Shown: one piece after another, positions 25,823-38,106 of the stretch
Layout: each line of letters opens with the position of its first letter
How positions within the stretch are numbered: the stretch's first letter is position 1
DNA from: Oscillospiraceae bacterium
GTDB lineage: Bacteria; Bacillota; Clostridia; Oscillospirales; Acutalibacteraceae
DNA: 41,545 nucleotides
Direction of reading: 5' to 3'
Assembly (NCBI GenBank): GCA_031256825.1
Contig: JAIRPV010000008.1
Span: 1-41,545 of the forward strand
The notes under the pieces: model-generated
The model's input: only the letters and a program-made list of their open reading frames with translations
Database searches by the model: none
What the model was told of the DNA's origin: nothing
Made by a program: the position numbers and the translations under genes

Positions 25823-26542
25823 ATGTCGGACAATGTGGATTCTTTACTGACGCAGATCCAGGAGCGGATTGAGGGCGGAAAACGGTTTGGGCGCCTGCGG
25901 ATGGTCGATCCGCAGGAACTGCAAGACCTGCTGGAATCGGTGCGGGCCGCCATGCCCAACACCATTGAGCGGGCACGCGAAATTGTGGCAAAGCGCACGG
26001 AAATCATCGAAGGCGCGCGCGAAGACGCCGAGGGCACCCTGGCCGACGCGCGGCAGAAGTCCGCCGAACTGGAAGCCAGCACCAACGCGCGCGTGCAGGA
26101 GGTGGTGCAGCACGCCAAAGAGCGCGTGCTGCAAATGCGCGCGCAGGGCGAGCAGATTGTGGAAGCGGCGAAGGCGGAGGCCGCGCGCCTGGTGGAGCAG
26201 CACACCATAACCCTGGGCGCGCAGGAGCAGGCCGAACAGATGCTGCGGCAGGCGCGCGCAGCCGCGGAAAAGATAGAGCTGGAAAGCCGCCAGCAGTGCG
26301 AGCAGGCCATTTCGTCCGCGCAGGGGTATAGCCAGGATTTGCTGCGCCGCACAGAGGATTGGGGCATGCAGTATACCGAAGGGGTGCGGTCGGTGGTGGA
26401 AGAAATCGTCAACGAGGCGGAAGAAATTTTAGCCAGTTCCCTGACAGAAATCCGCGGCACAAAAAAGCGGCTGCAAGTCACAATGACAAAATCGGCCAAG
26501 CCGCCGGAGTTTTATCCGCCAGAGGAGCCGGGCGGCTTTTAA
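25823..26542 (+). CDS. Coiled-coil protein (DivIVA/V-ATPase subunit H-like)
   Basis: 239 aa. After a short N-terminus (LLTQIQERIEGGKRFGR, MVDPQELQDLLESVRAAMP) nearly the whole protein from 45 to 215 is a heptad-rich coiled coil full of Ala, Glu, Gln and Arg. The tail is PPEFYPPEEPGGF. Proteins of this shape directly after coaD are common in Clostridia and are annotated as ATPase or vacuolar H+-ATPase subunit H by resemblance alone; DivIVA-like is the better structural description. There is no ATPase motif. GAGAGAGTGGGG precedes ATG. Function unknown. Confidence 0.75.
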   Translation: MSDNVDSLLTQIQERIEGGKRFGRLRMVDPQELQDLLESVRAAMPNTIERAREIVAKRTEIIEGAREDAEGTLADARQKSAELEASTNARVQEVVQHAKERVLQMRAQGEQIVEAAKAEAARLVEQHTITLGAQEQAEQMLRQARAAAEKIELESRQQCEQAISSAQGYSQDLLRRTEDWGMQYTEGVRSVVEEIVNEAEEILASSLTEIRGTKKRLQVTMTKSAKPPEFYPPEEPGGF

Positions 26543-26595: not shown

Positions 26596-26624
26596 TTGAC
26601 ATTTGCCGGGTTCTGTGCTATACT
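26596..26624 (+). promoter_or_regulatory. Sigma-A promoter of the sugar/glycan operon
   Basis: TTGACA (26596-26601), a 17-bp spacer and TATACT (26619-26624). The leader to the first gene is about 100 nt. No other promoter of this quality is seen before 37552, so the ten genes are probably one transcript. Confidence 0.85.
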
Positions 26625-26730
26625 ATTTCTCGGTTGCGCGCGCGGCGTCTGGCCTTCCCAAGCGGGCGCCGGGCGGAATAAGCGGCCTGAATGCAGGCCA
26701 TAATATGGTGAAGCAAGCGAAGGGATGCCT

Positions 26731-27765
26731 ATGCTGGATTGGCTGTCGGAACAGGATCATTTTCAAACGATTGCATTTGTGCTTTACGTTTTGTTTTCCG
26801 TGCTCTTTTTGCGTTCCCACAGAATCAGCGCGCGGATTGACAAAGTGGCGTCTGCTCGGGTGTTGTCGCGGCTGGCGCAAATCCTTTCGCCGCAGAAAAA
26901 GAGCAAAACGGAAGAAGCTTCCACCATGCCTTCGCTGACCAAAAAGAAAACGTTTGCCTGGTGGCTGCGCTTTACGGACTGGTTGTTCTACGACAAACTG
27001 AAGCTACTGCCAAGCGCGCGCACGGGGCAGCAATTGAATTTCTTTTTGCTGCTGCTGATTTCTTGGGTTGTAGCGCGTCTCAACAGCTGGGTTGGCACGA
27101 CAAATATCTACGGCAGGTGGACACAGCTTCGCGACCAGAAGCAAGAAGCAAGCCTGCTGTTGCAGCAAAGCGAGAAGCTGCTCGTTTTTTCTTTGCAGAT
27201 CATTGTGCTGGCGTTTCTGCTTTGGCTGCCCTTCTTTTTTCTTCTGCGCAAAAACCGGGAGTTTTATCTGGATGTTGGCGCTTTATTTCTTTTGGTGGAC
27301 GTATCCGCCAGAAAACTTGCCATGTGCGCGCATTTTGGCTGCTGCTTCGGCATTCCCTTTTCCTGGGGGGTATACAATAAAAAGCTGGATACAACGGTTT
27401 TCCCCGTGCAGATATTGGAGGGCTGCGTTGGCCTCGCCTGCGTTGTTCTGTGCGTGTTGTATCTGCTGTTCGCGAAGTCCTACCGGCCCGGGCGGGGGTG
27501 TTCGCTATGTTTGTTTTTCTTTCTGATCCCGCGGTTTTTCTGGGACTTTCTGCGCTACCGGGGCGACGATTACCGGAGCTTAGAAGCGAATACCTTCTTT
27601 GGGCTTACCTCGGTGCAGATCGTTTGCGTCGCAGGGACTTTGCTGGGGATCATTTGGCTGTTTTTGCTTCCGCTGGAAAAGAAGCTGATGGCTCGGCTGG
27701 ATGACGTTCTGATGCGCCGTCTGCCAAAACGCCTGAGTCTGTTCCTTGCGGAGCATGACGCATGA
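26731..27765 (+). CDS. Lgt-like polytopic membrane protein
   Basis: 344 aa with about seven membrane helices. The part ARKLAMCAHFGCCFGIPFSWG followed by TVFPVQILEG and, later, FLRYRGDDYRS...GLTSVQIV lines up with the core of prolipoprotein diacylglyceryl transferase (GRxGCFxxGCCYG, FPxQLYE, FRGD, LSxxQ). The invariant GRxGN Arg and Asn are not both kept, and the N-terminal cytoplasmic stretch (35-95) is unusual, so it is a paralogue and probably not the housekeeping Lgt. The second ATG (26731) is chosen because AAGGG is 7 nt upstream; it touches the first ATG at 26725. As first gene of a glycan operon, a lipid-linked transfer role is possible. It overlaps the next gene by ATGA. Confidence 0.65.
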   Translation: MLDWLSEQDHFQTIAFVLYVLFSVLFLRSHRISARIDKVASARVLSRLAQILSPQKKSKTEEASTMPSLTKKKTFAWWLRFTDWLFYDKLKLLPSARTGQQLNFFLLLLISWVVARLNSWVGTTNIYGRWTQLRDQKQEASLLLQQSEKLLVFSLQIIVLAFLLWLPFFFLLRKNREFYLDVGALFLLVDVSARKLAMCAHFGCCFGIPFSWGVYNKKLDTTVFPVQILEGCVGLACVVLCVLYLLFAKSYRPGRGCSLCLFFFLIPRFFWDFLRYRGDDYRSLEANTFFGLTSVQIVCVAGTLLGIIWLFLLPLEKKLMARLDDVLMRRLPKRLSLFLAEHDA

Positions 27766-29744
27766 TGGGATGGAAGGAGTTGGAGAAAGAAGTTTTGGAA
27801 ACCCAGAGAGACATTTACCTTGTGCAGGTGGATACCCTGCGAAAAATGCCGACCCACAGCACGCTATATCTGCCTTATGCCGTTGGAACTTTGTGGGCCT
27901 ACGCCAAACAGGCGCCTGCTGTGGAGGCGAACTATGCGCTGCGGGAACTGATCTGTATGCGGGAACCGGTTGAGCAAGTGGCCGACCGCATCAAAGCCCC
28001 CTTTTTGGTTGGTTTTTCGTGCTATGTTTGGAACACGGAATACAACAAGGTGCTCGCGGGGGAGCTGAAACGGCGTTTTCCGGCATGTCATATCGTTTTT
28101 GGCGGCCACAATGTGCCCTCTGGCAGCGCAATGCTGGACGAGCTGCCCTATGTGGATTTTTTGCTTCACAACGAAGGGGAACTCGGATTTCAGGCGTTGC
28201 TGCTGGAGCTTTGCAAAGAATCCCCGGATGTTACGGCGGTGCCCGGGCTGTCTTATCGGACGGAGCAGGGCGTTATCACCAACGCCATTGCGGTGGCGCA
28301 GTCAGTCGCGGCGTTCCCTTCGCCCTATCTGGAGGGCATTTTTGACCCCTTGATCGCGGCGCATCCGGAAATTGAATGGAGCACCGTTTGGGAGACCAAC
28401 CGCGGTTGTCCGCATCATTGTATCTATTGCGACTGGGGGCAGCACAAAGCAAAGGTGCGGCAATTTCCCATGGAACGGCTTTTGGCCGAAATTGAATGGT
28501 TTTCCCGGAACAGGATAGGGTTTATCTACGGCGCCGACGCGAACTTTGGTATTTTTGCGCGTGACGAAGATTTGCTCGACGCGCTGGCCGACGTGCACGG
28601 CCGCACGGGCTATCCGCGCCTGTTCGACGTCAACACAACAAAAACCCTGAACGAGCGCGTATTCCGTATCACCGAAAAACTCAATCGAAGCGGCCTGGAT
28701 AAAACAGGGCCAAGCCTGGCGATGCAAAGCATGTCGCCAGAAGTGCTGCGCATCATCGGGCGCCAGAATATAGACGAGAACATGTTTGCCCAGTGGATTC
28801 GCCGCTGCCGCCAGGCGGGGTACCGGACGCACACCGATTTGATTATGGGCCTGCCGGGGGAAACGCTGCAAAGCTTCTGCACCGGCGTAGAAAAATTGTT
28901 TGTGCTGGGGCAGCACGAGGGCATTCGATATTTTCTGTGCAACCTGCTGCCGAACGCGCTGATGGCTGCCCCCGCAATGCGCGAAAAATACAAAATCCGT
29001 GCCACGCGCTTTATTTTTAAACTAACCATGGAGGCGGCTCCCGAAATCATTAATGAATACATCGAAAGTGTGGACGAGACGTCGACAATGCCCTTTGCGG
29101 ACATGCTGACCGCCAATTATTTTATTTTTTTGGTGCACAGCATGCATAGTTTTGGCTTGCTGCGCCTGATTGCCATGTTTTTCCACACCGAAAAAATTGT
29201 TTCCTACGCTGATTTTTATATGGGCCTGCTTGATTTTTGCCATCGGCGGCCCGACACACTGCCCGGCGAAGCGATGGCGCGCATCGAAACGCATTTTAGC
29301 GATATGGCCCGCAGCAGAGAGCCGGAACTCCTGGAGATCCCCGGCTTTGGCTTCGGGAACATGAGCGACGACCAATATTTAATCAGCCGCGCTATTTTGG
29401 AACTGGACCGTTTTTACGCCGGCGCGGAAGAGTTCCTGCGGCAATTTTCCGCGCAGCCCGATGTGTTCGCGCAGCTGCTGCGTTATCAGCGTGAGAGCAT
29501 CCTGCTGCCGCGCGCGGAAGAAAAAACGCTCTGTTTTGATTATGATTTCCCCGCCTATTTCAACGCGATCTACGACGGCGCGCCAGCTCCGCTCCAAAAG
29601 AAAGCCGTGCGGCTGCGCTTTTCGTTTGACGACTGCGACATTTCAGACGAGCAAAAATATTTCCACACCATCGTGCAGTTGGGGCGCTTTACGAGCAAGG
29701 CGTTCTATACCATCGACTATCTTCCCGCGGAAGGGGTTGGTTGA
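27762..29744 (+). CDS. B12-binding-domain radical SAM protein
   Basis: 660 aa. The N-terminal 180 residues look like a Rossmann-type cobalamin-binding domain (FLVGFSCYVWNTEYN, HIVFGGHNVPSG, VDFLLHNEGELGFQALL). The radical SAM cluster motif GCPHHCIYCDWG has Cys at 216, 220 and 223. Then come the SAM-binding GADANFGIF region, a glycine turn DLIMGLPGE, and a long C-terminal domain of 250 residues with no motif I know. Proteins with CxYCDWG are often B12-dependent C- or P-methyltransferases in natural-product and glycan clusters. The B12 ligand DxHxxG is not clear, so cobalamin use is uncertain. It overlaps both neighbours and so is tightly coupled. Confidence 0.85.
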   Translation: MMGWKELEKEVLETQRDIYLVQVDTLRKMPTHSTLYLPYAVGTLWAYAKQAPAVEANYALRELICMREPVEQVADRIKAPFLVGFSCYVWNTEYNKVLAGELKRRFPACHIVFGGHNVPSGSAMLDELPYVDFLLHNEGELGFQALLLELCKESPDVTAVPGLSYRTEQGVITNAIAVAQSVAAFPSPYLEGIFDPLIAAHPEIEWSTVWETNRGCPHHCIYCDWGQHKAKVRQFPMERLLAEIEWFSRNRIGFIYGADANFGIFARDEDLLDALADVHGRTGYPRLFDVNTTKTLNERVFRITEKLNRSGLDKTGPSLAMQSMSPEVLRIIGRQNIDENMFAQWIRRCRQAGYRTHTDLIMGLPGETLQSFCTGVEKLFVLGQHEGIRYFLCNLLPNALMAAPAMREKYKIRATRFIFKLTMEAAPEIINEYIESVDETSTMPFADMLTANYFIFLVHSMHSFGLLRLIAMFFHTEKIVSYADFYMGLLDFCHRRPDTLPGEAMARIETHFSDMARSREPELLEIPGFGFGNMSDDQYLISRAILELDRFYAGAEEFLRQFSAQPDVFAQLLRYQRESILLPRAEEKTLCFDYDFPAYFNAIYDGAPAPLQKKAVRLRFSFDDCDISDEQKYFHTIVQLGRFTSKAFYTIDYLPAEGVG

Positions 29745-30589
29745 CCATCGCGCTTCCAAAGGCGTTTGTGTTTGGGGCGGGCTCGGGAGCTGGCTCCTTT
29801 TTGGGCCTGATCCAAAAAAAATACCAGGTCATTTGTTTGCTGGATAACGACGAGGCGAAGTGGAACAGCCGCGTGGAAGGGATTCCTGTTTGCCGGCCAA
29901 GCATGATACGGGAAGCGGACTACGACAAGATTGTGATCGCTTCCAGCGCCGGCCTGGATGCGATGGTGGAACAGCTGATCGGCATGGGGGTTGGCTATGG
30001 CCGCATCGATACGACGTATGTTGGCGCCATCGAACAGCCCCGCCTTCTTTTTTTAGAAAAGCTGGGGGAGTTGCTGGCGGAGCGGGGCGTTTGCGGCAGC
30101 GTGGCCGAAGCCGGGGTGTTTCAGGGCGCGTTCGCCAAAGAAATCAATCGCGTCTTTCCCGCAAAAAAGCTTTTTTTGTTCGACACATTCTCGGGCTTCG
30201 ACGCAAGGGATCTGCGGGCGGAACGGGAGCACCGGTATTCGCGGCGGGGGGAAGGCTTTTTTGGCGGCACGAGCGAAGAGCTGGTGCGGCGGCAGCTCCC
30301 GCGTGAAGCGCTGTGCGTGATCCGCAAAGGGTATTTTCCGGAAACCGCCGAAGGCCTGGATGAGATCTTCTGTTTCGTCCATCTGGATCTGGATTTATAC
30401 CAGCCTACGCTTGCGGGGCTGGAGTATTTTTACCCCCGCATGGCAAAAGGCGGCGTGATATTGGTTCACGATTATTTTTCGGATGAATACGCGGGCGTAA
30501 AAAAAGCGGTTCAAACATTCGAAAAAGCAAACGGGCGGCTTTCGCTTTTTCCAATCGGAGATTTGTTCAGCCTCGGCATACAGTGCTGA
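29741..30589 (+). CDS. TylF/MycF-type methyltransferase with N-terminal Rossmann domain
   Basis: 282 aa in two domains. Residues 1-90 (FVFGAGSGAGSFLGLIQ, VICLLDNDEAKW, IVIASSAGLDAMVEQL) resemble the small nucleotide-binding domain found ahead of sugar acetyltransferases such as PglD. Residues 105-282 match macrocin O-methyltransferase TylF/MycF: VAEAGVFQGAFAKEINR, FLFDTFSGFDARD, CFVHLDLDLYQPTLAGLEYF and the metal-site GGVILVHDYFSDEY. These enzymes methylate hydroxyls of sugars using Mg2+. The start is TTG 29741, overlapping the previous stop (TTGA) with AAGGGG 4 nt before it. The fused layout suggests the enzyme binds a nucleotide sugar (inference). Confidence 0.88.
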   Translation: MTIALPKAFVFGAGSGAGSFLGLIQKKYQVICLLDNDEAKWNSRVEGIPVCRPSMIREADYDKIVIASSAGLDAMVEQLIGMGVGYGRIDTTYVGAIEQPRLLFLEKLGELLAERGVCGSVAEAGVFQGAFAKEINRVFPAKKLFLFDTFSGFDARDLRAEREHRYSRRGEGFFGGTSEELVRRQLPREALCVIRKGYFPETAEGLDEIFCFVHLDLDLYQPTLAGLEYFYPRMAKGGVILVHDYFSDEYAGVKKAVQTFEKANGRLSLFPIGDLFSLGIQC

Positions 30590-30611
30590 GCTTGATAGCG
30601 AGGTGCGAGAA

Positions 30612-31643
30612 ATGAATGTTTTGGTGACGGGGAACCTGGGTTATATCGGCAGCGTGATGGTTCCCTATCTGGTGAAGAAAAACCACAGAGTGTCGGGCCT
30701 GGACACGGGATATTACGCGGGCGACGCGATGTATCCCTTCCGGCAGCCGGTGGCGCGCCAGATCAACAAAGACATCCGCGATGTGGAACCCGGCGATTTT
30801 GCCGGATACGACGCGGTGATTCATTTGGCTGCCCTTTCGAACGACCCGATTGGCGAACTGAACCCCAGCCTGACAGAAGAGATTAATCTGCGCGCAACGC
30901 TGCGCGTGGCCGAATGCGCGAAGCGGGCGGGCGTCAGCCGGTTCCTCTTTGCCTCTTCGCCCAGCATCTATGGCATTTCGAGCCAGAACAGTGCGCTGGA
31001 TGAAGACGCGGCAAAAGCGCCCCTCACCGTTTATGCCCGCACAAAATGGCAGGCGGAACAGCAGCTGGGCGGCTTCAGCGGCGGCGATTTTTTTTGCGTC
31101 TACCTGCGGCCCTCAACCGCCTACGGCGCCAGCCCCATGTTTCGCGGCGATTTGGTCTTCAATAATTTTATCGCCTGCGCCTACACCACGGGCAAAATAG
31201 AAATCAAGAGCGACGGCGCGCCGTGGCGGCCGCTGGCGCATGTGGAAGATATTGCGGAAGGCTTTGCGGCGGCTCTGGCCGCGCCGCGCGAACTGGTGGA
31301 AAACAGGGCCTTCCATATCGGGGTGCCCGGCGGCAATTATACGGTGCGCGATATCGCGCAGGCGGCGCAGAACGCCCTGCCGCAAGTGCCCCTGACATTC
31401 AGCGGCGAACATGCCCGTTCCCGCTCTTATCAGGCGAGCTTCCGCCGGATCCTGACGGAGTTGGGGGAATACTATCGGCCCCGGTGGAATCTGGAAAAAA
31501 GCGCCGCGGAGATTCTTGCGCTGTTCGAGAAAGTGCATTTCAGCCGGGAGGATTTTGAAGGCCCCCGCACCATACGCATCCAAAGGCTCCAAACGCTTTT
31601 AGAAGAAGGCAAGCTGACCAGCGCTCTCAGGTGGAAGGTATGA
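30612..31643 (+). CDS. SDR-family NAD-dependent sugar nucleotide epimerase/reductase
   Basis: 343 aa extended short-chain dehydrogenase. The NAD motif GNLGYIG is at 8-14, with IHLAALSND, the active-site part FASSPSIYG and the catalytic YxxxK as YARTKWQAE. The 4,6-dehydratase motif T-D-E is absent, so it is not a CDP-glucose 4,6-dehydratase of the usual kind; epimerase or ketoreductase is more likely. The C-terminal RLQTLLEEGKLTSALRW is found in a branch of sugar SDRs. ATG 30612 is preferred over an in-frame upstream start at 30603 because GAGG lies 8 nt before it. It overlaps rfbF by ATGA. Confidence 0.88.
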   Translation: MNVLVTGNLGYIGSVMVPYLVKKNHRVSGLDTGYYAGDAMYPFRQPVARQINKDIRDVEPGDFAGYDAVIHLAALSNDPIGELNPSLTEEINLRATLRVAECAKRAGVSRFLFASSPSIYGISSQNSALDEDAAKAPLTVYARTKWQAEQQLGGFSGGDFFCVYLRPSTAYGASPMFRGDLVFNNFIACAYTTGKIEIKSDGAPWRPLAHVEDIAEGFAAALAAPRELVENRAFHIGVPGGNYTVRDIAQAAQNALPQVPLTFSGEHARSRSYQASFRRILTELGEYYRPRWNLEKSAAEILALFEKVHFSREDFEGPRTIRIQRLQTLLEEGKLTSALRWKV

Positions 31644-32413
31644 AAGCGGTGATTTTGGCGGGCGGCTTAGGCTCCCGCATAACGGAAGAAAGCCACCTGC
31701 GGCCAAAACCGATGGTTGAAATCGGCGAGCAGCCGCTGCTATGGCATATCATGAAACTTTATTCCCACTATGGCGTCAATGATTTTATCATTTGCGCCGG
31801 CTACATGCAGCAAAAAATAAAGGAATATTTTTCCAGTTACTATTTGCACCGCAGCGATATCACGTTCGATTTTACGCGCGGCGGCGCCGTGACCGTGCAC
31901 AGCAATGTGGCCGAGCCATGGAAAGTGACCGTTGCCGACACAGGCATGCATACCATGACCGGCGGCCGGCTGCTGCGCGCGCGCGGCTATATTGGCGAAG
32001 AGCCGTTTTTGCTGACCTATGGCGACGGCGTTGCCGACGTTGACATCGGCGCGCTGCTGAACTTCCACCACGAAAAAAAGAAACTGGCCACAGTAACGGC
32101 AGTTAGCACCCAGCAGCGCTTCGGCGTCATGCGCGCGGACGAAAACAGCTTAATTACGGAATTCCGCGAAAAAAGCGGCATGGATAACATCAGCATCAAC
32201 GGCGGGTTTATGGTGCTCGAGCCAAAGATCTTCGATTACATCGAAGGCGACGCAACGGTGTTTGAGCGCGAACCCATGGAACGCCTGACGGCGGAAGGGC
32301 AGCTGGCGGCCTACCAGCACAAAGGCTTTTGGCAGTGCATGGACACCCTGCGCGACAAACTTTTGCTGGAACAGCTCTGGGACAGCGGCAAAGCGCCCTG
32401 GAAGGTTTGGTGA
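31640..32413 (+). CDS. rfbF: Glucose-1-phosphate cytidylyltransferase
   Basis: 257 aa, exactly the family length. It makes CDP-glucose from CTP and glucose 1-phosphate, the entry step to all CDP-3,6-dideoxy sugars. The nucleotide motif LAGGLGSRITEESHLRPKPM, WHIMKLYSHYGVNDFIICAGY, AEPWKVTVADTG, and LTYGDGVADVDI with the metal-binding Asp pair are all seen. ATG 31640 has GGAAGG upstream. It is the step-one enzyme of this operon and the clearest sign that the sugar is CDP-linked. Confidence 0.95.
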   Translation: MKAVILAGGLGSRITEESHLRPKPMVEIGEQPLLWHIMKLYSHYGVNDFIICAGYMQQKIKEYFSSYYLHRSDITFDFTRGGAVTVHSNVAEPWKVTVADTGMHTMTGGRLLRARGYIGEEPFLLTYGDGVADVDIGALLNFHHEKKKLATVTAVSTQQRFGVMRADENSLITEFREKSGMDNISINGGFMVLEPKIFDYIEGDATVFEREPMERLTAEGQLAAYQHKGFWQCMDTLRDKLLLEQLWDSGKAPWKVW

Positions 32414-32470
32414 AACACAGCGGCCCGAAGGCGCTTGCGCGCGCAAAACGGGCGGGAAAGGCAGGACGGG

Positions 32471-33784
32471 ATGCAGACACAGGCAAGGGCGGAAATCCTC
32501 CGCCTGGTGCGGGACTATTGCGAGCAATATCATGGGCCGCCGGCGTTTGTTCCGGGCGCGCCGATTCCCTATGCGCGGCGCGTCTACGACGCGGAAGAAA
32601 TGACAGCCCTCGTGGACGCCTCGCTGGATTTTTGGCTGACGGCGGGCCGCTATGCCGAAGCGTTCGAGGCCGCGCTGGCGCAATTTTTGCGCGTTGAGCA
32701 CTGCCTGTTGGTCAATTCCGGCTCCAGCGCGAATTTGCTCGCCTTTATGGCGCTGACTTCCCCCCTGCTGGGAGAGCGCGCGATCCGGCCGGGCGACGAG
32801 GTGCTAACCGTTGCCGCGGGGTTCCCGACCACCGTTTCGCCTTTGATCCAATATGGCGCGGTTCCGGTATTTGTCGACGTCACCATACCGCAATACAACA
32901 TTGACGCGGCGCAGCTCGATCGCGCCTGGTCCCCTCGCATGAAGGCCGTGATGCTGGCGCACACGCTGGGCAATCCCTTCCCCGTCGCTGCCGTTAAGGC
33001 GTTCTGCCGGGAGCGCGGGCTTTGGCTCATTGAGGATAACTGCGACGCGCTGGGTTCGGAATATACCCTGGAAGGGCAAACGGGCTACACCGGAACGTTT
33101 GGCGACGTTGGCACATCCAGCTTTTATCCGCCGCACCATATCACCACGGGCGAAGGCGGCGCGGTTTATACCAACAACGCGCTGTTAGCAAAAATCCTGC
33201 GCTCCATGCGGGACTGGGGGCGCGACTGCGTCTGCCCCTCCGGGCAAGACAACCTGTGCGGCAATCGCTTTGGCGGACAATATGGCACTTTGCCGCCGGG
33301 CTACGATCATAAATATGTGTTTTCGCATTTTGGGTATAATTTTAAGGCGACCGAGATGCAGGCCGCCATCGGATGCGCGCAGCTAAAAAAACTGCCCGGA
33401 TTCATTGAACAGCGCCGCGCCAATTTTAACCGCCTGACGGAACTTTTGGCGCCGCTGCGGGAGCGCCTGATCCTCCCCCAGGCCGAGGAGCACGCGAACC
33501 CGAGCTGGTTTGGTTTTATTTTAACCTGCCGCGAGGGCCTTGACCGCACGGCGCTGGTGCGGACGCTGGAAGCCAAGGGCGTGCAGACGAGGATGCTTTT
33601 TTCGGGCAACATGCTGCGCCACCCGTGTTTTACCAATCTGCCGGCGGCGGCGTACCGGGTGGCGGGCGAACTGAACAACAGCAACATTGTAACGGAGCGT
33701 TCGTTTTGGGTTGGCGTGTCCCCGTGCCTTTCGGCGCAACAGGTGGAATATATGGGCGCGGCCATACGGGAATGCGCGGGATAA
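32471..33784 (+). CDS. rfbH: CDP-6-deoxy-4-keto-glucose 3-dehydrase (E1, RfbH)
   Basis: 437 aa, the family length. The iron-sulfur and PMP-dependent enzyme removes the C3 hydroxyl from CDP-4-keto-6-deoxyglucose. Two diagnostic features are seen: the PLP-binding Lys of aminotransferases is replaced in YPPHHITTGEGGAVYTNN by His (222-223), and the [2Fe-2S] motif CxC-x7-C is at 253, 255 and 263, with a further Cys at 191 in EDNCDALGS. ATG 32471 is chosen for its length and for AGGACGGG directly upstream; a frame from 32435 is longer without match. The enzyme needs a reductase partner (E3, RfbI) that is not in this window. Confidence 0.95.
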   Translation: MQTQARAEILRLVRDYCEQYHGPPAFVPGAPIPYARRVYDAEEMTALVDASLDFWLTAGRYAEAFEAALAQFLRVEHCLLVNSGSSANLLAFMALTSPLLGERAIRPGDEVLTVAAGFPTTVSPLIQYGAVPVFVDVTIPQYNIDAAQLDRAWSPRMKAVMLAHTLGNPFPVAAVKAFCRERGLWLIEDNCDALGSEYTLEGQTGYTGTFGDVGTSSFYPPHHITTGEGGAVYTNNALLAKILRSMRDWGRDCVCPSGQDNLCGNRFGGQYGTLPPGYDHKYVFSHFGYNFKATEMQAAIGCAQLKKLPGFIEQRRANFNRLTELLAPLRERLILPQAEEHANPSWFGFILTCREGLDRTALVRTLEAKGVQTRMLFSGNMLRHPCFTNLPAAAYRVAGELNNSNIVTERSFWVGVSPCLSAQQVEYMGAAIRECAG

Positions 33785-33811
33785 CCCAAACGCGCGCAAG
33801 AGGGTAACTAT

Positions 33812-35632
33812 GTGAAAATGATGGTCTCGGAGTATATCGCGGCGTTCCTTGCCGCGAACGGCATTGCCGATATCTTCAGCGTGGTGGGCGGCGGCGCGAT
33901 GTATCTCAACGATGCGCTGGGGCACCACGCGGGCTTGCGCGTGGTTTATCTGCACCACGAGCAGGCCTGCGCCATGGCGGCGGAAGCCTATGCCCGCGTA
34001 GAAAACCGGCTGGCCGCCGTGTGCGTCACAAGCGGGCCGGGGGGAACCAACGCCATCACGGGCGTGCTGTGCGGATGGCTCGACAGCCTGCCAATGCTCG
34101 TGATTTCAGGGCAGGTGCGCTACAACACTTGCGCCCGGAGCACCGGGCTGCCGCTGCGGGCTTTGGGCGATCAGGAGTTTGATATCACAAAAGCCGTGGC
34201 CCCGATGACAAAATATTGCGAAATGGTCAGCGACCCGCGCCGCATTCGCTATTGCCTCGAAAAGGCGCTGTATTTCGCGCGCGCCGGCAGGCCCGGACCC
34301 TGCTGGCTGGATATTCCCCTGGATGTCCAGGGGGCGCTTGTGGACCCCGCGCAATTGCCGGGCTACGACCCGGCGCAGCATGCCCACCTGCTTCCCGGCC
34401 CCGTAACGGAAGCGACGGCGCTGGCGGTCATTGAAAAAATCAGGGCAGCGCGGCGGCCTGTGCTCTATCCGGGCAGCGGCGTTCGCCTTTCTGGCGGCTA
34501 CGATCTGTTTTTGCGCTTTGCGCAAGCCCTGGGCGTTCCGGTGGTGACCTGCTGGAACAGCATTGATCTGCTTTGGGATGCGCACGAGCTGTATACGGGG
34601 CGCGGCGGCATGATGGGCGACCGCGCCGGGAATTTTGCCGTGCAAAACAGCGACCTGCTGATTGCCGTGGGCAACCGCCTGAGCATCCGCCAGGTGGGGT
34701 ACCGCTGGGATACCACAGCCCGGGCGGCTTACCAGATTATGGTAGACATCGATCCGCCGGAACTGCGAAAGCCAACCCTTCGGATCGACATGCCCATCCA
34801 CGCGGATGCGAAAGAGTTCTTCCGGGCGGTTCTCGCGGCCTGCGAAGGCGGCGCGCGCCCGCTGTTTCGCGGCGAAGAATGGCTGGCCCGGTGCGGGCGC
34901 TGGAAGCGCGAATACCCCGTGGTGCTGCCCCGGCATTGCGAACCAGCCGGGCAGGCCAATGTTTATTGCTTTGTCAGGGAGCTGAGCCGCCGCCTGCCGG
35001 AAGGGAAACGCGTGGTGGTGGGCAACGGCTCCGCCTGTGTGGTGGGCAGCCAGGCGTTCGAAATCAAACGCGGGCAGCGCTTTTTTATCAACTCAGGCAC
35101 GGCGGCGATGGGATACGATCTTCCGGCCTCCATCGGCGTATGTTTGGCTTCCAAAGGCGGCGGCGTGGTTGCCGTCACCGGCGAAGGCAGCTTGCAAATG
35201 AATTTGCAGGAACTGCAAACCATTGTGCACCACCGCCTGCCCATCCAACTGTTTGTGATCAACAACGGCGGATACCATTCGATCCGGCAGACGCAAAGCC
35301 GCCTGTTCCCCCGGCGCAGCCTTGTGGGCGTTGGGCCAGAGAGCGGCGATCTGTCGTTCCCGGCGCTGAAAGGCCTGGCCGCGGCCTATGGCATCCCCTA
35401 TTACTGCATAGAAACCAACCGGGATATGGCCTTGCTGGACGAAGTGCTGGCCTGCCCGTCGTATTGCCTGTGCGAAATCGTTGTCTCCGCGCAGCAGGAA
35501 TTTGAGCCGAAAGCCGCGGCAAAGCGCCTGGCGGATGGCACGCTGTATTCCCCACCGCTGGAGGATCTCGCGCCGTTTTTGCCAAGGGAAGAGCTGCTTA
35601 GCAATATGATGATCCCGCTGATAGAGGAGTAG
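33812..35632 (+). CDS. ThDP-dependent enzyme, acetolactate synthase/YerE-like
   Basis: 606 aa with the three domains of the acetolactate synthase family. The N-terminal Pyr domain has the catalytic Glu in HHEQACAMAAEAYAR; the central domain has GSGVRLSGGYD; the PP domain has TGEGSLQMNLQELQTI and then NNGGYHSIRQTQ. The ThDP motif is GEG where GDG is usual, which keeps a carboxylate for Mg2+. The start is GTG 33812, with GAGGG 8 nt upstream; ATGs at 33818 and 33821 are alternatives. In Yersinia, YerE of this family adds an acetyl unit from pyruvate to CDP-3,6-dideoxy-4-ketoglucose. Lying directly after rfbH and before an SDR, a YerE-like role is the best fit; true acetolactate synthase is less likely here. 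Confidence 0.85.
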   Translation: MKMMVSEYIAAFLAANGIADIFSVVGGGAMYLNDALGHHAGLRVVYLHHEQACAMAAEAYARVENRLAAVCVTSGPGGTNAITGVLCGWLDSLPMLVISGQVRYNTCARSTGLPLRALGDQEFDITKAVAPMTKYCEMVSDPRRIRYCLEKALYFARAGRPGPCWLDIPLDVQGALVDPAQLPGYDPAQHAHLLPGPVTEATALAVIEKIRAARRPVLYPGSGVRLSGGYDLFLRFAQALGVPVVTCWNSIDLLWDAHELYTGRGGMMGDRAGNFAVQNSDLLIAVGNRLSIRQVGYRWDTTARAAYQIMVDIDPPELRKPTLRIDMPIHADAKEFFRAVLAACEGGARPLFRGEEWLARCGRWKREYPVVLPRHCEPAGQANVYCFVRELSRRLPEGKRVVVGNGSACVVGSQAFEIKRGQRFFINSGTAAMGYDLPASIGVCLASKGGGVVAVTGEGSLQMNLQELQTIVHHRLPIQLFVINNGGYHSIRQTQSRLFPRRSLVGVGPESGDLSFPALKGLAAAYGIPYYCIETNRDMALLDEVLACPSYCLCEIVVSAQQEFEPKAAAKRLADGTLYSPPLEDLAPFLPREELLSNMMIPLIEE

Positions 35633-35636
35633 CGCT

Positions 35637-36572
35637 ATGGCACAGGAAATCAGCCACGCCGTTATAACGGGCGGCACGGGCATGCTGGCGCAGGCGCTGG
35701 GCCGCCTTTTGGCGCGGCGCGGCGTCGCCGTAACGCTGCTTGTCCGCCCCGGGTCTTCCCGGCTGCGCCAGATGGGGCTTTCCCCCGGAACAACGGTGAT
35801 CCCCTGCGATTTGGGGAACCTTGCTTCGCTTTCGGCGCGGGACATAGGCCGCTGCGACGCGTTGTATCATTTTGGCTGGGAGGGCACGCTGCCACCCGCC
35901 CGCGGCGACGCGGCGCTGCAAAACAGGAACGTCGGCCACACCCTTGCCGCTGTGGAGCTGGCGGCGCGGCTGGGCTGCGGCGTGTTCGTGGGATCCGGTT
36001 CTCAGGCCGAATATGGGCGGCCGGGCGGCATTCTTTCGGCCGCCACGCCGGAAGCCCCCGAAACAGCCTACGGCGTTGCGAAGCTGGCCGCGTCGCGCCT
36101 TTCGCGCGTGGCCTGCCGGGAACGGGGGATGCGGCATGTTTGGGCGCGCGTGCTCAGCGTATATGGCCCGGGCGACCAGCCGCAGACGATGATGATGTCT
36201 TGCGTCCGCGCGCTGCTGCGGGGCGAGCGAATGTCGTTCACCGCAGGGGAGCAGCGCTGGGATTATCTATATTGCGGCGACGCGGCCAGGGCGTTTGAGC
36301 AGCTGGGCGCGCGGGGGCGCGACGGCGGCGTTTATCTGTTGGCCAGCGGGCAGCCGCGCGCGCTGAAGCAATATATCCTTGCCGCCCGCGACGCGATTGC
36401 CCCCGCCGCAGAAGTGGGGCTGGGGGAGCTGCCCTATCCTCCCGGCCAGGTTATGTCGCTGGAAGCGGATTTGAGCGAACTGACGCGAGACACAGGCTTT
36501 CAGCCCACCGTCGCCTTTGAAGACGGCGTGCGGCTGACAGCAAAATGGATAAAGGAGAATCATCTGTTATGA
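35637..36572 (+). CDS. SDR-family CDP-sugar 4-ketoreductase-like (RfbJ/YerF-like)
   Basis: 311 aa. The NAD(P) motif GGTGMLAQALG is at about 12-22. The YxxxK (YGVAKLAA) and the SGSQAEYG preceding it are typical of SDR epimerases and reductases in O-antigen clusters. VLSVYGPGDQPQ and TAGEQRWDYLYCGDAARAF are like the CDP-abequose synthase layout (VYGPGD, TTGEQIRDFIF). No TDE is present, so it is not a dehydratase. GAGGAG lies before ATG. It follows the YerE-like gene by 4 bp and overlaps the glycosyltransferase by ATGA. A final C4-ketone or side-chain reduction is the inferred role. Confidence 0.85.
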   Translation: MAQEISHAVITGGTGMLAQALGRLLARRGVAVTLLVRPGSSRLRQMGLSPGTTVIPCDLGNLASLSARDIGRCDALYHFGWEGTLPPARGDAALQNRNVGHTLAAVELAARLGCGVFVGSGSQAEYGRPGGILSAATPEAPETAYGVAKLAASRLSRVACRERGMRHVWARVLSVYGPGDQPQTMMMSCVRALLRGERMSFTAGEQRWDYLYCGDAARAFEQLGARGRDGGVYLLASGQPRALKQYILAARDAIAPAAEVGLGELPYPPGQVMSLEADLSELTRDTGFQPTVAFEDGVRLTAKWIKENHLL

Positions 36573-37552
36573 AGACCATCAGCATACTGATCCCAACTTA
36601 CAACGAAGAAAACAACGTACTGCCTCTTTACGACGCGCTGCAAGAGCAGCTGGCGGCGCTGAAGGAGCGCTACAACTACGAGATCCTGTTCATCGACAAC
36701 AAATCGCAAGACAGCACCCGCGAAAAAATCAAGCTCCTTTGCGCGCGGGATCGGCACGTCAAGGCCATATTCAATTCGCGCAATTTCGGAGCGGAAAAGT
36801 CCGGGTTTTACGGCGCGATGCAGACCACCGGTGACTGCACGATTGGCATGCACGCGGATTTTCAAACCCCGCCGGAGCTGCTGCCCCGCATGATTGCGGC
36901 CTGGGAGCAGGGCAACAAAATTGTGTTCGCGGCCAAAGACGCCGGCAGCGAAGCTTCGGCGGCCCATTTTCTGCGCAAGCTTTACTATAAGAGCCTGCGC
37001 AAACTATCCAACAACGAAGTGGTTGATCATTTTACTGGCTTCGCCCTTTACGACAGAAGCGTCCTCGAAGAGGGGCGCAAGTGGGATGACGCGGAGCCGA
37101 TGATTCGCACAATGGCTTCCGAAGTGGGGTTTGATCGGTGCATTATTCCCTATACGCAGCAGGAGCGCCGCTCCGGCACAGGCTCTGGCAATTTCTTTTC
37201 GGCCTACGATTTGGCCATGAGCGGCATCGTTAATTACACAAAAGCGGGTTCGCGGCTGGCCACGCTTTTCGGCGCGCTGGTGTCCGCAGCCAGCGCGGTT
37301 TCCGCGCTTGTTTGGCTGATCCTGAAACTGATCAACTGGGAAAAATACCCTGCGGGGCTGGCGCTGCTGGCGATGGGCGTTTTTTTCTTTGGCGGGGTGC
37401 AGCTGATGTTTTTGGGTCTGCTGGGCGAGTATGTAATCAATATTCAACGCCGCACCATGAAACGCCCCCTGGTGGTGGAAGAATGCCGGCTGAATTTTGA
37501 AGACGACGCGGAAGAATACCAAAAAGCGCACCCGAAAGCACGGATGCGCTGA
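36569..37552 (+). CDS. GtrB/DPM1-type family 2 glycosyltransferase
   Basis: 327 aa. The GT-A domain starts ISILIPTYNEENNVLPLY, with DNKSQDSTREKI, and the metal motif HADFQTPPEL (DxQ in place of DxD, as usual in this branch). Then follow RSGTGSGNFFSAYDLAM and two C-terminal membrane helices (ALVSAASAVSALVWLIL, LLAMGVFFFGGVQLMFLGLLGEYV). The type transfers a sugar from a nucleotide donor to polyprenyl phosphate. ATG 36569 overlaps the previous stop; AAAGGAG is 11 nt upstream. It could load the finished operon sugar, or glucose, onto the lipid carrier. Last gene of the operon, 14 bp from the convergent spoVT; no hairpin terminator is seen. Confidence 0.92.
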   Translation: MKTISILIPTYNEENNVLPLYDALQEQLAALKERYNYEILFIDNKSQDSTREKIKLLCARDRHVKAIFNSRNFGAEKSGFYGAMQTTGDCTIGMHADFQTPPELLPRMIAAWEQGNKIVFAAKDAGSEASAAHFLRKLYYKSLRKLSNNEVVDHFTGFALYDRSVLEEGRKWDDAEPMIRTMASEVGFDRCIIPYTQQERRSGTGSGNFFSAYDLAMSGIVNYTKAGSRLATLFGALVSAASAVSALVWLILKLINWEKYPAGLALLAMGVFFFGGVQLMFLGLLGEYVINIQRRTMKRPLVVEECRLNFEDDAEEYQKAHPKARMR

Positions 37553-37566
37553 ACGGAACGGATCGC

Positions 37567-38106
37567 TTACTCTTCCATTTGCCGCCCAAGGAACGACGCC
37601 GCCACCTGGATCAGCTTGACTTCGGTTTGCGTGGGCATGGCGCCGTTTTCGTTCATCAGCATGATCACGCAGCCGGAAACATCGCCGCCGCCGATGATGG
37701 GGCAGGCGACAGCCGCTTCGCGATCCAGGCCTTCGATGGGGCGCATATGCTCGCCGCCGGTGGTTGCCGTAAAGCCAGTGCGGTTTTCGATCACGGTTTC
37801 GAGGGAGCTGGTTACCCGGCGGTCAATGGCCTCTTTTTTGGCCAGGCCCGCGCATGCGATCACGCGATCGCGGTCGGTAATAATGATAGGCAGGTTCGTG
37901 CCGCGGAAGAGCACTTCCGCATAGGGCTTGGTGGTTGCGCTGAGTTCGCCAACGGGGGAATACTTCTTGAAAATGACCTCGCCGTCTGCGTCGGTGAAAA
38001 TCTCGAGGGGATCGCCTTCGCGGATTCGCATCGTCCTACGGATTTCTTTGGGAATGACCACTCGGCCAAGGTCGTCAATGCGCCGCACAATGCCAGTTGC
38101 TTTCAT
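37567..38106 (-). CDS. spoVT: Stage V sporulation protein T
   Basis: 179 aa, the family length. The N-terminal AbrB-type swapped-hairpin DNA-binding domain (MKATGIVRRIDDLGRVVIPKE, IRRTMRIREGDPLEIF) is followed by a GAF-like domain (TDRDRVIACAG, RPIEGLDREAAVACPIIGGG). SpoVT adjusts forespore (sigma-G) gene expression late in sporulation. AAGGATGG precedes ATG. The gene is good evidence for a spore-former and ties in with the SASP-like gene at 668-1267. Confidence 0.97.
   Translation of the reverse strand: MKATGIVRRIDDLGRVVIPKEIRRTMRIREGDPLEIFTDADGEVIFKKYSPVGELSATTKPYAEVLFRGTNLPIIITDRDRVIACAGLAKKEAIDRRVTSSLETVIENRTGFTATTGGEHMRPIEGLDREAAVACPIIGGGDVSGCVIMLMNENGAMPTQTEVKLIQVAASFLGRQMEE

Follow-up and report, generated by a model that had tools for sequence, protein, structure and literature searches.

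The closest described relative of the system analysed here is the cytidine diphosphate (CDP)-yersiniose pathway of Yersinia, in which RfbF, RfbG, RfbH, YerE and YerF serve lipopolysaccharide assembly. The same order of RfbF, an E1-type RfbH, a YerE-like carboligase and a reductase of the short-chain dehydrogenase/reductase (SDR) kind occurs in an operon of an uncultured Oscillospiraceae bacterium (assembly GCA_031256825.1), on the 41,545-nucleotide contig JAIRPV010000008.1, the whole of which is called the window below. However, this operon has no RfbG, carries another SDR protein (SDR1) as well as methylation genes, and ends with a transferase to a lipid carrier, the host being clostridial. 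We propose, with a probability of about 0.42, that the operon produces a yersiniose-like sugar, a 3-deoxy, 4-C-branched hexose activated by CDP, and loads it on a lipid carrier for the cell surface, SDR1 replacing RfbG and the C6 hydroxyl being kept.

A first-pass annotation of the region 26731..37552 had drawn the parallel to the Yersinia pathway, missed the absence of RfbG and passed over SDR1, which is the odd gene; as RfbG is absent, the predicted product changes. It had also counted ten genes, where inspection of genes and open reading frames (ORFs) finds nine, all on the + strand and tightly packed, in the order Lgt-like, radical S-adenosylmethionine (SAM), TylF-like, SDR1, RfbF, RfbH, thiamine diphosphate (ThDP) enzyme, SDR2 and GtrB. 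The gene identities, their order and their packing were given correctly, and the CDP-linked branched sugar of yersiniose type stands, with RfbF and RfbH over their profile cut-offs and a YerE-like ThDP enzyme. The operon is real and intact, and its core is of the branched-sugar type.

The branched-sugar core and the absent RfbG

RfbF (31640..32413, + strand) reaches 379 bits against the glucose-1-phosphate cytidylyltransferase profile TIGR02623 (cut-off 300), and RfbH (32471..33784, + strand) reaches 668 bits against NF011936 (cut-off 423) and 473 bits against the solved CDP-6-deoxy-hexulose-3-dehydrase E1 (3bcx), compared with 160-168 bits for ColD-type entries. Aligned to 3bcx, RfbH has the HH motif and all four cysteines of the C...CxC..C pattern, presumably the ligands of an iron-sulphur cluster, and by these likenesses it is of the E1, CDP-4-keto-6-deoxyglucose-3-dehydrase, type.

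The ThDP enzyme (33812..35632, + strand; 606 aa) matches 8rph best, at 446 bits over nearly its full length and with a C-terminal tail common to both, against 233 bits for 5ahk, which is labelled acetolactate synthase II and which we take to be YerE of Pseudomonas protegens, and 216 bits for the next acetolactate synthase. The record of 8rph bears the name 'Thiamine pyrophosphate-binding protein'; we take it to be JanthE from its CDG motif, which aligns with GDG in the others and is described as unique to JanthE (PMC12247030). The cofactor motif of the window enzyme is GEG, unlike the CDG of JanthE and the GDG of 5ahk. Its identity as an acetolactate synthase, the check that the first-pass annotation had asked for, was rejected, the TIGR00118 score being 303 bits under a cut-off of 538 and no entry so labelled exceeding 233 bits. 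The assignment as YerE-like, with JanthE nearest and YerE of Yersinia itself outside the comparison, holds as a sequence-level call. No plasmid match to the enzyme was found at E 1e-100.

SDR2 (35637..36572, + strand), called RfbJ/YerF-like earlier, gives a match that is generic for SDR proteins (PF01370, 106.7 bits), and its likeness to YerF comes from position alone; the gene adjoins the ThDP gene in many relatives, and its product is a candidate for reducing the acyl branch. The GtrB/DPM-type glycosyltransferase (GtrB; 36569..37552, + strand) has the PF00535 domain of family GT2 and matches sll0501 (5ekp), which we take to be GtrB, at 141 bits over residues 9-311, near full length. These matches support the previous view that it would load the sugar onto a polyprenyl phosphate carrier.

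A novel core was not supported, for a core of RfbF, RfbG, RfbH, ThDP enzyme, SDR2 and GtrB is ordinary in the family. In 300 family genomes, themselves a sample of a larger group, the ThDP enzyme is present in 37 (E 1e-120), the own genome being included in both numbers. The neighbourhood comparison that had been suggested for Clostridia was run within this family, on 37 ThDP loci from 36 relatives (G107 has a further, weaker match that was left out), with tallies of blast matches >100 bits and neighbour genes in fetched loci called by longest ORF, whose starts may be wrong. Loci were often cut by contig ends, and 14 of the 37 did not have both RfbF and RfbH in view; in L041, RfbH lies at the contig end and no RfbG is seen. 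RfbG, RfbH, ThDP enzyme, SDR2 and GtrB stand together in 22 of the 37 loci. Eleven large ORFs 3′ of GtrB were scanned, of which four, directly adjoining it, are YfhO (L039, L042, L043, L050), one matches PMT_2 weakly (L035), and the other six are of different kinds or unmatched. By analogy with CsbB-YfhO systems (PMC5836110, PMC8035078), the presence of YfhO hints that the sugar is passed on to a cell-wall polymer. A GtrB-type transferase is common to this CsbB/GtcA/YfhO type of transmembrane glycosylation and to the window operon, in which no YfhO or GtcA gene was found, the search being limited to the operon and the rest of the genome not searched.

RfbG, the CDP-glucose 4,6-dehydratase, is present in all 23 related loci that show both RfbF and RfbH, between the two in 22 of them and beside RfbH, on its far side, in L053. 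The corresponding junction in the window (32414..32470; 57 bp) contains no RfbG remnant, and neither an RfbG nor a TDKVY codon pattern was found in the operon or elsewhere in the window. In the own genome (97.7% complete), the best match to TIGR02622 reaches 80 bits under a cut-off of 278 and is RmlB, and the RfbG of a sister genome used as query gives 33 bits at most; an RfbG hidden elsewhere in the assembly was thus found by neither the profile nor the sister-protein search. PF01370 finds seven matches in this genome at E 1e-8, of which only SDR1 and SDR2 lie in the operon.

An ordinary yersiniose-type route could nevertheless be at work, in which RfbG has stayed unassembled or is substituted by RmlB, SDR1 acts further on as a reductase or epimerase, and a 3,6-dideoxy branched sugar results, as in the relatives. 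We hold this to be quite possible, at somewhat under even odds: it agrees with a draft genome (97.74% complete, 42 contigs), with the constancy of RfbG in the 23 loci, with the GalE-like [ST]xnYx3K layout of SDR1, and with one genome, G505, in which RfbF, SDR1 and RfbG stand together, but it is opposed by the adjacency of RfbG and RfbH in relatives, given a remnant-free junction deep in a 41.5-kb contig, and by an RmlB that is a regular dTDP (deoxythymidine diphosphate) enzyme (448 bits, cut-off 365). RfbG was found in none of the 14 genus genomes, a count of little weight with the ThDP gene in just 2 of them, and no second RfbG-less operon was found within the genus, where the contig of the sole other ThDP carrier (G700) starts just upstream of the ThDP gene.

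SDR1 as a candidate CDP-glucose 4-dehydrogenase

SDR1 (30603..31643, + strand), which we propose as a CDP-glucose 4-dehydrogenase in the place of RfbG, has as its nearest solved structure, the best of 25, the distant 6vo6 (97 bits), which we take to be Cj1427, the guanosine diphosphate (GDP)-heptose C4-dehydrogenase of Campylobacter jejuni. Its motifs are SSPSIYG...YARTK, and the RfbG counterparts are TTDKVY and YSNSK. The CDP-glucose 4,6-dehydratases bear the fingerprint [ST]DK...YxxxK (PMC8987622), of which the [ST]DK pair is missing in SDR1 and in all 20 homologues aligned, and a DK/DE acid-base pair is likewise absent.

Cj1427 keeps reduced nicotinamide adenine dinucleotide (NADH) bound and reoxidises it on alpha-ketoglutarate to give L-2-hydroxyglutarate, and with a pyridoxal phosphate-dependent 3-dehydratase it yields in vitro a 3-deoxy-4-keto sugar whose side chain is intact, without 6-deoxygenation (PMC10680097). 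SDR1 and RfbH beside a CDP-glucose synthase form such a pair, and therefore SDR1 may be read as a C4-dehydrogenase. No CDP-glucose route of the C4-dehydrogenase type came up in literature searches of open PMC articles.

The company of the SDR1 homologues bears on this reading. No match to SDR1 was found in the 299 other family genomes at E 1e-50 or in the 13 other genus genomes at E 1e-30, by which an old family gene was rejected, and it occurs in 2 of 397 other genomes drawn from the phylum. Twenty homologue loci (18 plasmid records hand-picked across genera from 93 matching, and two genome loci) were viewed for 6-10 kb on each side; they come from Alphaproteobacteria, actinobacteria, planctomycetes and Deinococcus, and the two genome loci from the phylum of the window. 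RfbF is nearby in 19 of the 20, RfbG in one and RfbH in none, the RfbF genes being annotated as glucose-1-phosphate cytidylyltransferase in 11 cases and as sugar phosphate nucleotidyltransferase in 3, and recognised by similarity alone in 5. Therefore, unlike the GDP-heptose enzyme Cj1427, the SDR1 homologues go with CDP-glucose synthesis, and the near absence of RfbG beside them speaks against the ordinary route as well. Of the 14 annotated loci, 11 include RfbC and 10 include a class I methyltransferase; all three methyltransferases scanned (L138, L139, L150) have the C-methyltransferase domain Methyltransf_14, and C-methyltransferases with this domain act next to a 4-ketone.

The frequent RfbC gives these RfbG-less loci a resemblance to 6-deoxysugar clusters, as would be expected if SDR1 were an unusual CDP-glucose 4,6-dehydratase and the product the usual 3,6-dideoxy branched sugar. 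We regard this as improbable, because neither SDR1 nor any of the 20 homologues has an Asp/Glu acid or a Lys/Glu base after the catalytic Ser/Thr, as in the dehydratase fingerprint (PMC8987622).

For the C4-dehydrogenase reading, one Deinococcus locus is of interest, in which a true L-2-hydroxyglutarate oxidase (583 bits, cut-off 299) lies between RfbF and SDR1 and would, by analogy, clear the by-product of a Cj1427-type enzyme; two further Deinococcus records list lhgO (L-2-hydroxyglutarate oxidase). Two more flavin adenine dinucleotide (FAD) proteins were seen near SDR1 homologues, one at 188 bits under the same cut-off of 299 and the other with no match to the L-2-hydroxyglutarate oxidase family.

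Several points weigh against the replacement of RfbG by SDR1. The match to 6vo6 is just 97 bits, and the substrate of Cj1427 is a GDP-heptose. In G505 (L142), one of the two loci of the window's phylum, SDR1 is flanked by RfbF and by a true RfbG (368 bits, cut-off 278) and is there not an RfbG replacement, and in the other, G301 (L143), the homologue has no RfbF nearby and has lost the YxxxK lysine. E1 requires an E3 reductase (PMC8987622), and one for the E1-like RfbH is absent from the operon. In the own genome no L-2-hydroxyglutarate oxidase was confirmed, one of two DAO matches having been scored (172 against 299). The observation of an operon without RfbG comes from a single draft genome, in whose unassembled ~2% an RfbG could sit, and G700, of the same genus and 80% complete, has the ThDP enzyme, SDR2 and GtrB with neither SDR1 nor RfbG. 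The G+C content of SDR1 (59.5%, window 58.6%) does not show a recent acquisition. An exchange of an RfbF-RfbG pair for SDR1-RfbF was also rejected, since RfbF groups with the sister loci L119 and L034 (support 0.974), and RfbH and the ThDP enzyme group with L034. Because of G505, G301, the single-draft state and the missing E3, we place the replacement of RfbG by SDR1 at about even odds with the ordinary route.

In the G505 cluster, RfbF, SDR1 and RfbG are accompanied by two seemingly transketolase-like proteins, a pair of FkbM methyltransferases and a ThDP enzyme, and this cluster is perhaps another branched-sugar operon.

Methylation genes, operon layout and neighbours

The B12-type radical SAM protein (27762..29744, + strand; 660 aa) resembles TokK (7kdx) at 319 bits over residues 36-601 and CysS at 188 bits, reaches 56.1 bits against PF04055, and has the CxxxCxxC cluster motif at residue 216; its match to the B12-binding PF02310 (22.7 bits) is below the cut-off of 32.1, and it is far below the cut-off of the KedN5 subfamily (198 vs 700). 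The TylF/MycF-like O-methyltransferase (29741..30589, + strand; 282 aa) reaches 52 bits against PF05711 (cut-off 23) and 28-30 bits against structures of the mycinamicin III 3''-O-methyltransferase. These matches support the radical SAM protein as a class-B-like decoration enzyme and agree with the earlier assignment of both proteins as putative decoration enzymes. TokK and CysS, the cystobactamid enzyme, methylate unactivated carbons, in part repeatedly. The likeness to these methylases extends over most of the length; the window enzyme differs from them in being encoded among sugar genes.

In the sister locus L034 (= L120) the order is radical SAM, RfbF, RfbG, RfbH, ThDP enzyme, SDR2, GtrB and TylF, and by this order the sister genome, like the window, includes radical SAM and TylF genes in its sugar operon. 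In a third metagenome-assembled genome (L119), the radical SAM gene lies directly 5′ of RfbF and is probably part of the sugar operon; the link of radical SAM and sugar genes in these loci is not random. By their naming, these metagenome-assembled genomes presumably come from termite guts. Radical SAM and TylF occur in one of the 37 related ThDP loci, and SDR1 or an Lgt-like gene in none.

The Lgt-like polytopic membrane protein (26725..27765, + strand; 346 aa) stays just under the Pfam cut-off of PF01790 (23.6 bits, cut-off 24.9), and its profile found no Lgt in the PDB among solved structures; it has GCC(F/Y) and Q..E positions in common with relatives in L118 and L121. Relatives above the cut-off lie in L118, in one of two L089 genes (the same place as L121) and in L162. 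In L118 and L121 the Lgt-like and radical SAM genes stand together without sugar genes, and related radical SAM genes form arrays elsewhere, as would be the case if the Lgt-like, radical SAM and TylF genes were a separate module, acting on a lipid or another glycan and sharing only the promoter. Such a separation appears unlikely to us, because the sugar operon of L034 starts with radical SAM and ends with TylF, and RfbF of L119 has a radical SAM gene directly in front of it.

Two Lgt-like genes stand beside the radical SAM gene in L121 (G128), together with a frame of >2000 aa with a signal-like start. In L162 (G700, contig C492) ThDP enzyme, SDR2 and GtrB are followed by five genes of 326-367 aa, two more and an Lgt-like gene; all three of the five-gene run that were scanned are radical SAM proteins, one with SPASM. 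A radical SAM match at E 1e-60 is present in 32 of the 300 family genomes, own included, and in other Oscillospiraceae/Clostridia as many as six TokK-like B12 radical SAM genes form tandem arrays (L093, L099-L102, L123, L130 and others), their proteins being mostly ~640 aa and roughly 32-42% identical to the window protein. Among the neighbours of the arrays are small GT2-like proteins (one of four scanned above cut-off) and two fusion proteins, one of fucose-pyrophosphorylase and GHMP kinase and one of nucleotidyltransferase and HAD, and because of these neighbours a sugar role of the arrays is likely.

The one promoter assumed earlier finds a strong counterpart in a sigma-70-like TTGACA-17-TATACT site with an extended -10 TG (26596..26624, + strand; 11/12 consensus matches), which is a consensus match only and the best of 7 sites in the region, where shuffles expect 5.2. 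With ORF-finder starts the successive junctions measure -4, -4, 13, -13, 21, 27, 4 and -28 bp. Better in-frame ATG starts exist for RfbF (31640, ORF-finder GTG 31631), RfbH (32471, as in the L034 relative; ORF-finder 32435) and GtrB (36569, ORF-finder 36545), and with them the Lgt-radical SAM, SDR1-RfbF and SDR2-GtrB junctions overlap by 4 bases, and RfbF and RfbH lie 57 bp apart. No terminator-like site was seen on the + strand just 3′ of GtrB. Upstream of the operon lie coaD (178 bits, cut-off 103) and, between the two, a coiled-coil-like protein of 239 aa (25823..26542) with no NCBIfam match at E 1e-10. Downstream, on the opposite strand, a SpoVT-like gene (37567..38106) fits the spore-former that had been suggested, but at 214.5 bits is just below its cut-off of 235.9.

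Proposed pathway and significance

In the pathway that we propose, RfbF would first form CDP-glucose, which SDR1, and not RfbG, would oxidise at C4 to the 4-ketone, the C6 hydroxyl staying in place and the NADH of SDR1 probably being recycled on alpha-ketoglutarate in the manner of Cj1427. Third, RfbH would take off the 3-hydroxyl, and fourth, the ThDP enzyme would acylate C4 with an alpha-keto acid as donor, probably pyruvate; SDR2 would reduce the branch ketone in the fifth step. Sixth, TylF would O-methylate the sugar and the B12 radical SAM enzyme would methylate an unactivated carbon, perhaps more than once, and finally GtrB would pass the sugar to undecaprenyl phosphate; the scheme gives no step to the Lgt-like protein. 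With C4 oxidation only by SDR1, the product would therefore keep its 6-hydroxyl, as a 3-deoxy-4-C-branched hexose. The enzyme identities in the first, third, fourth and seventh steps come from sequence; we infer the substrates, the order of the steps and the whole of the second, fifth and sixth.

A wider form of this proposal is tentative, and we think it rather unlikely in its entirety. CysS iterates on an arene methoxyl. After a start by a Cj1427-like CDP-glucose 4-dehydrogenase, and a 3-deoxy-4-C-acyl hexose with its 6-hydroxyl made by RfbH and the YerE-like enzyme, the TokK-class enzyme might extend the product, perhaps in repeated rounds on an O-methyl group introduced by TylF, to an alkoxy or C-alkylated branched surface sugar, and the RfbF-SDR1 start without RfbG might elsewhere open routes to C-methyl sugars in rhizobia and actinobacteria and further ones in planctomycetes and Deinococcus.

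In conclusion, two features are new here: RfbG has been lost while SDR1 stands in its place, and a sugar operon includes putative radical methylation. TokK-like cobalamin radical SAM enzymes are known from antibiotics; their occurrence here in a nucleotide-sugar operon offers a starting point for explaining the arrays of gut Clostridia. If SDR1 is a CDP-glucose 4-dehydrogenase, an RfbF-associated SDR family found in several phyla would gain a function, one enzyme swap would explain how yersiniose chemistry gives sugars with the 6-hydroxyl kept, and the product would be a branched sugar not seen before.

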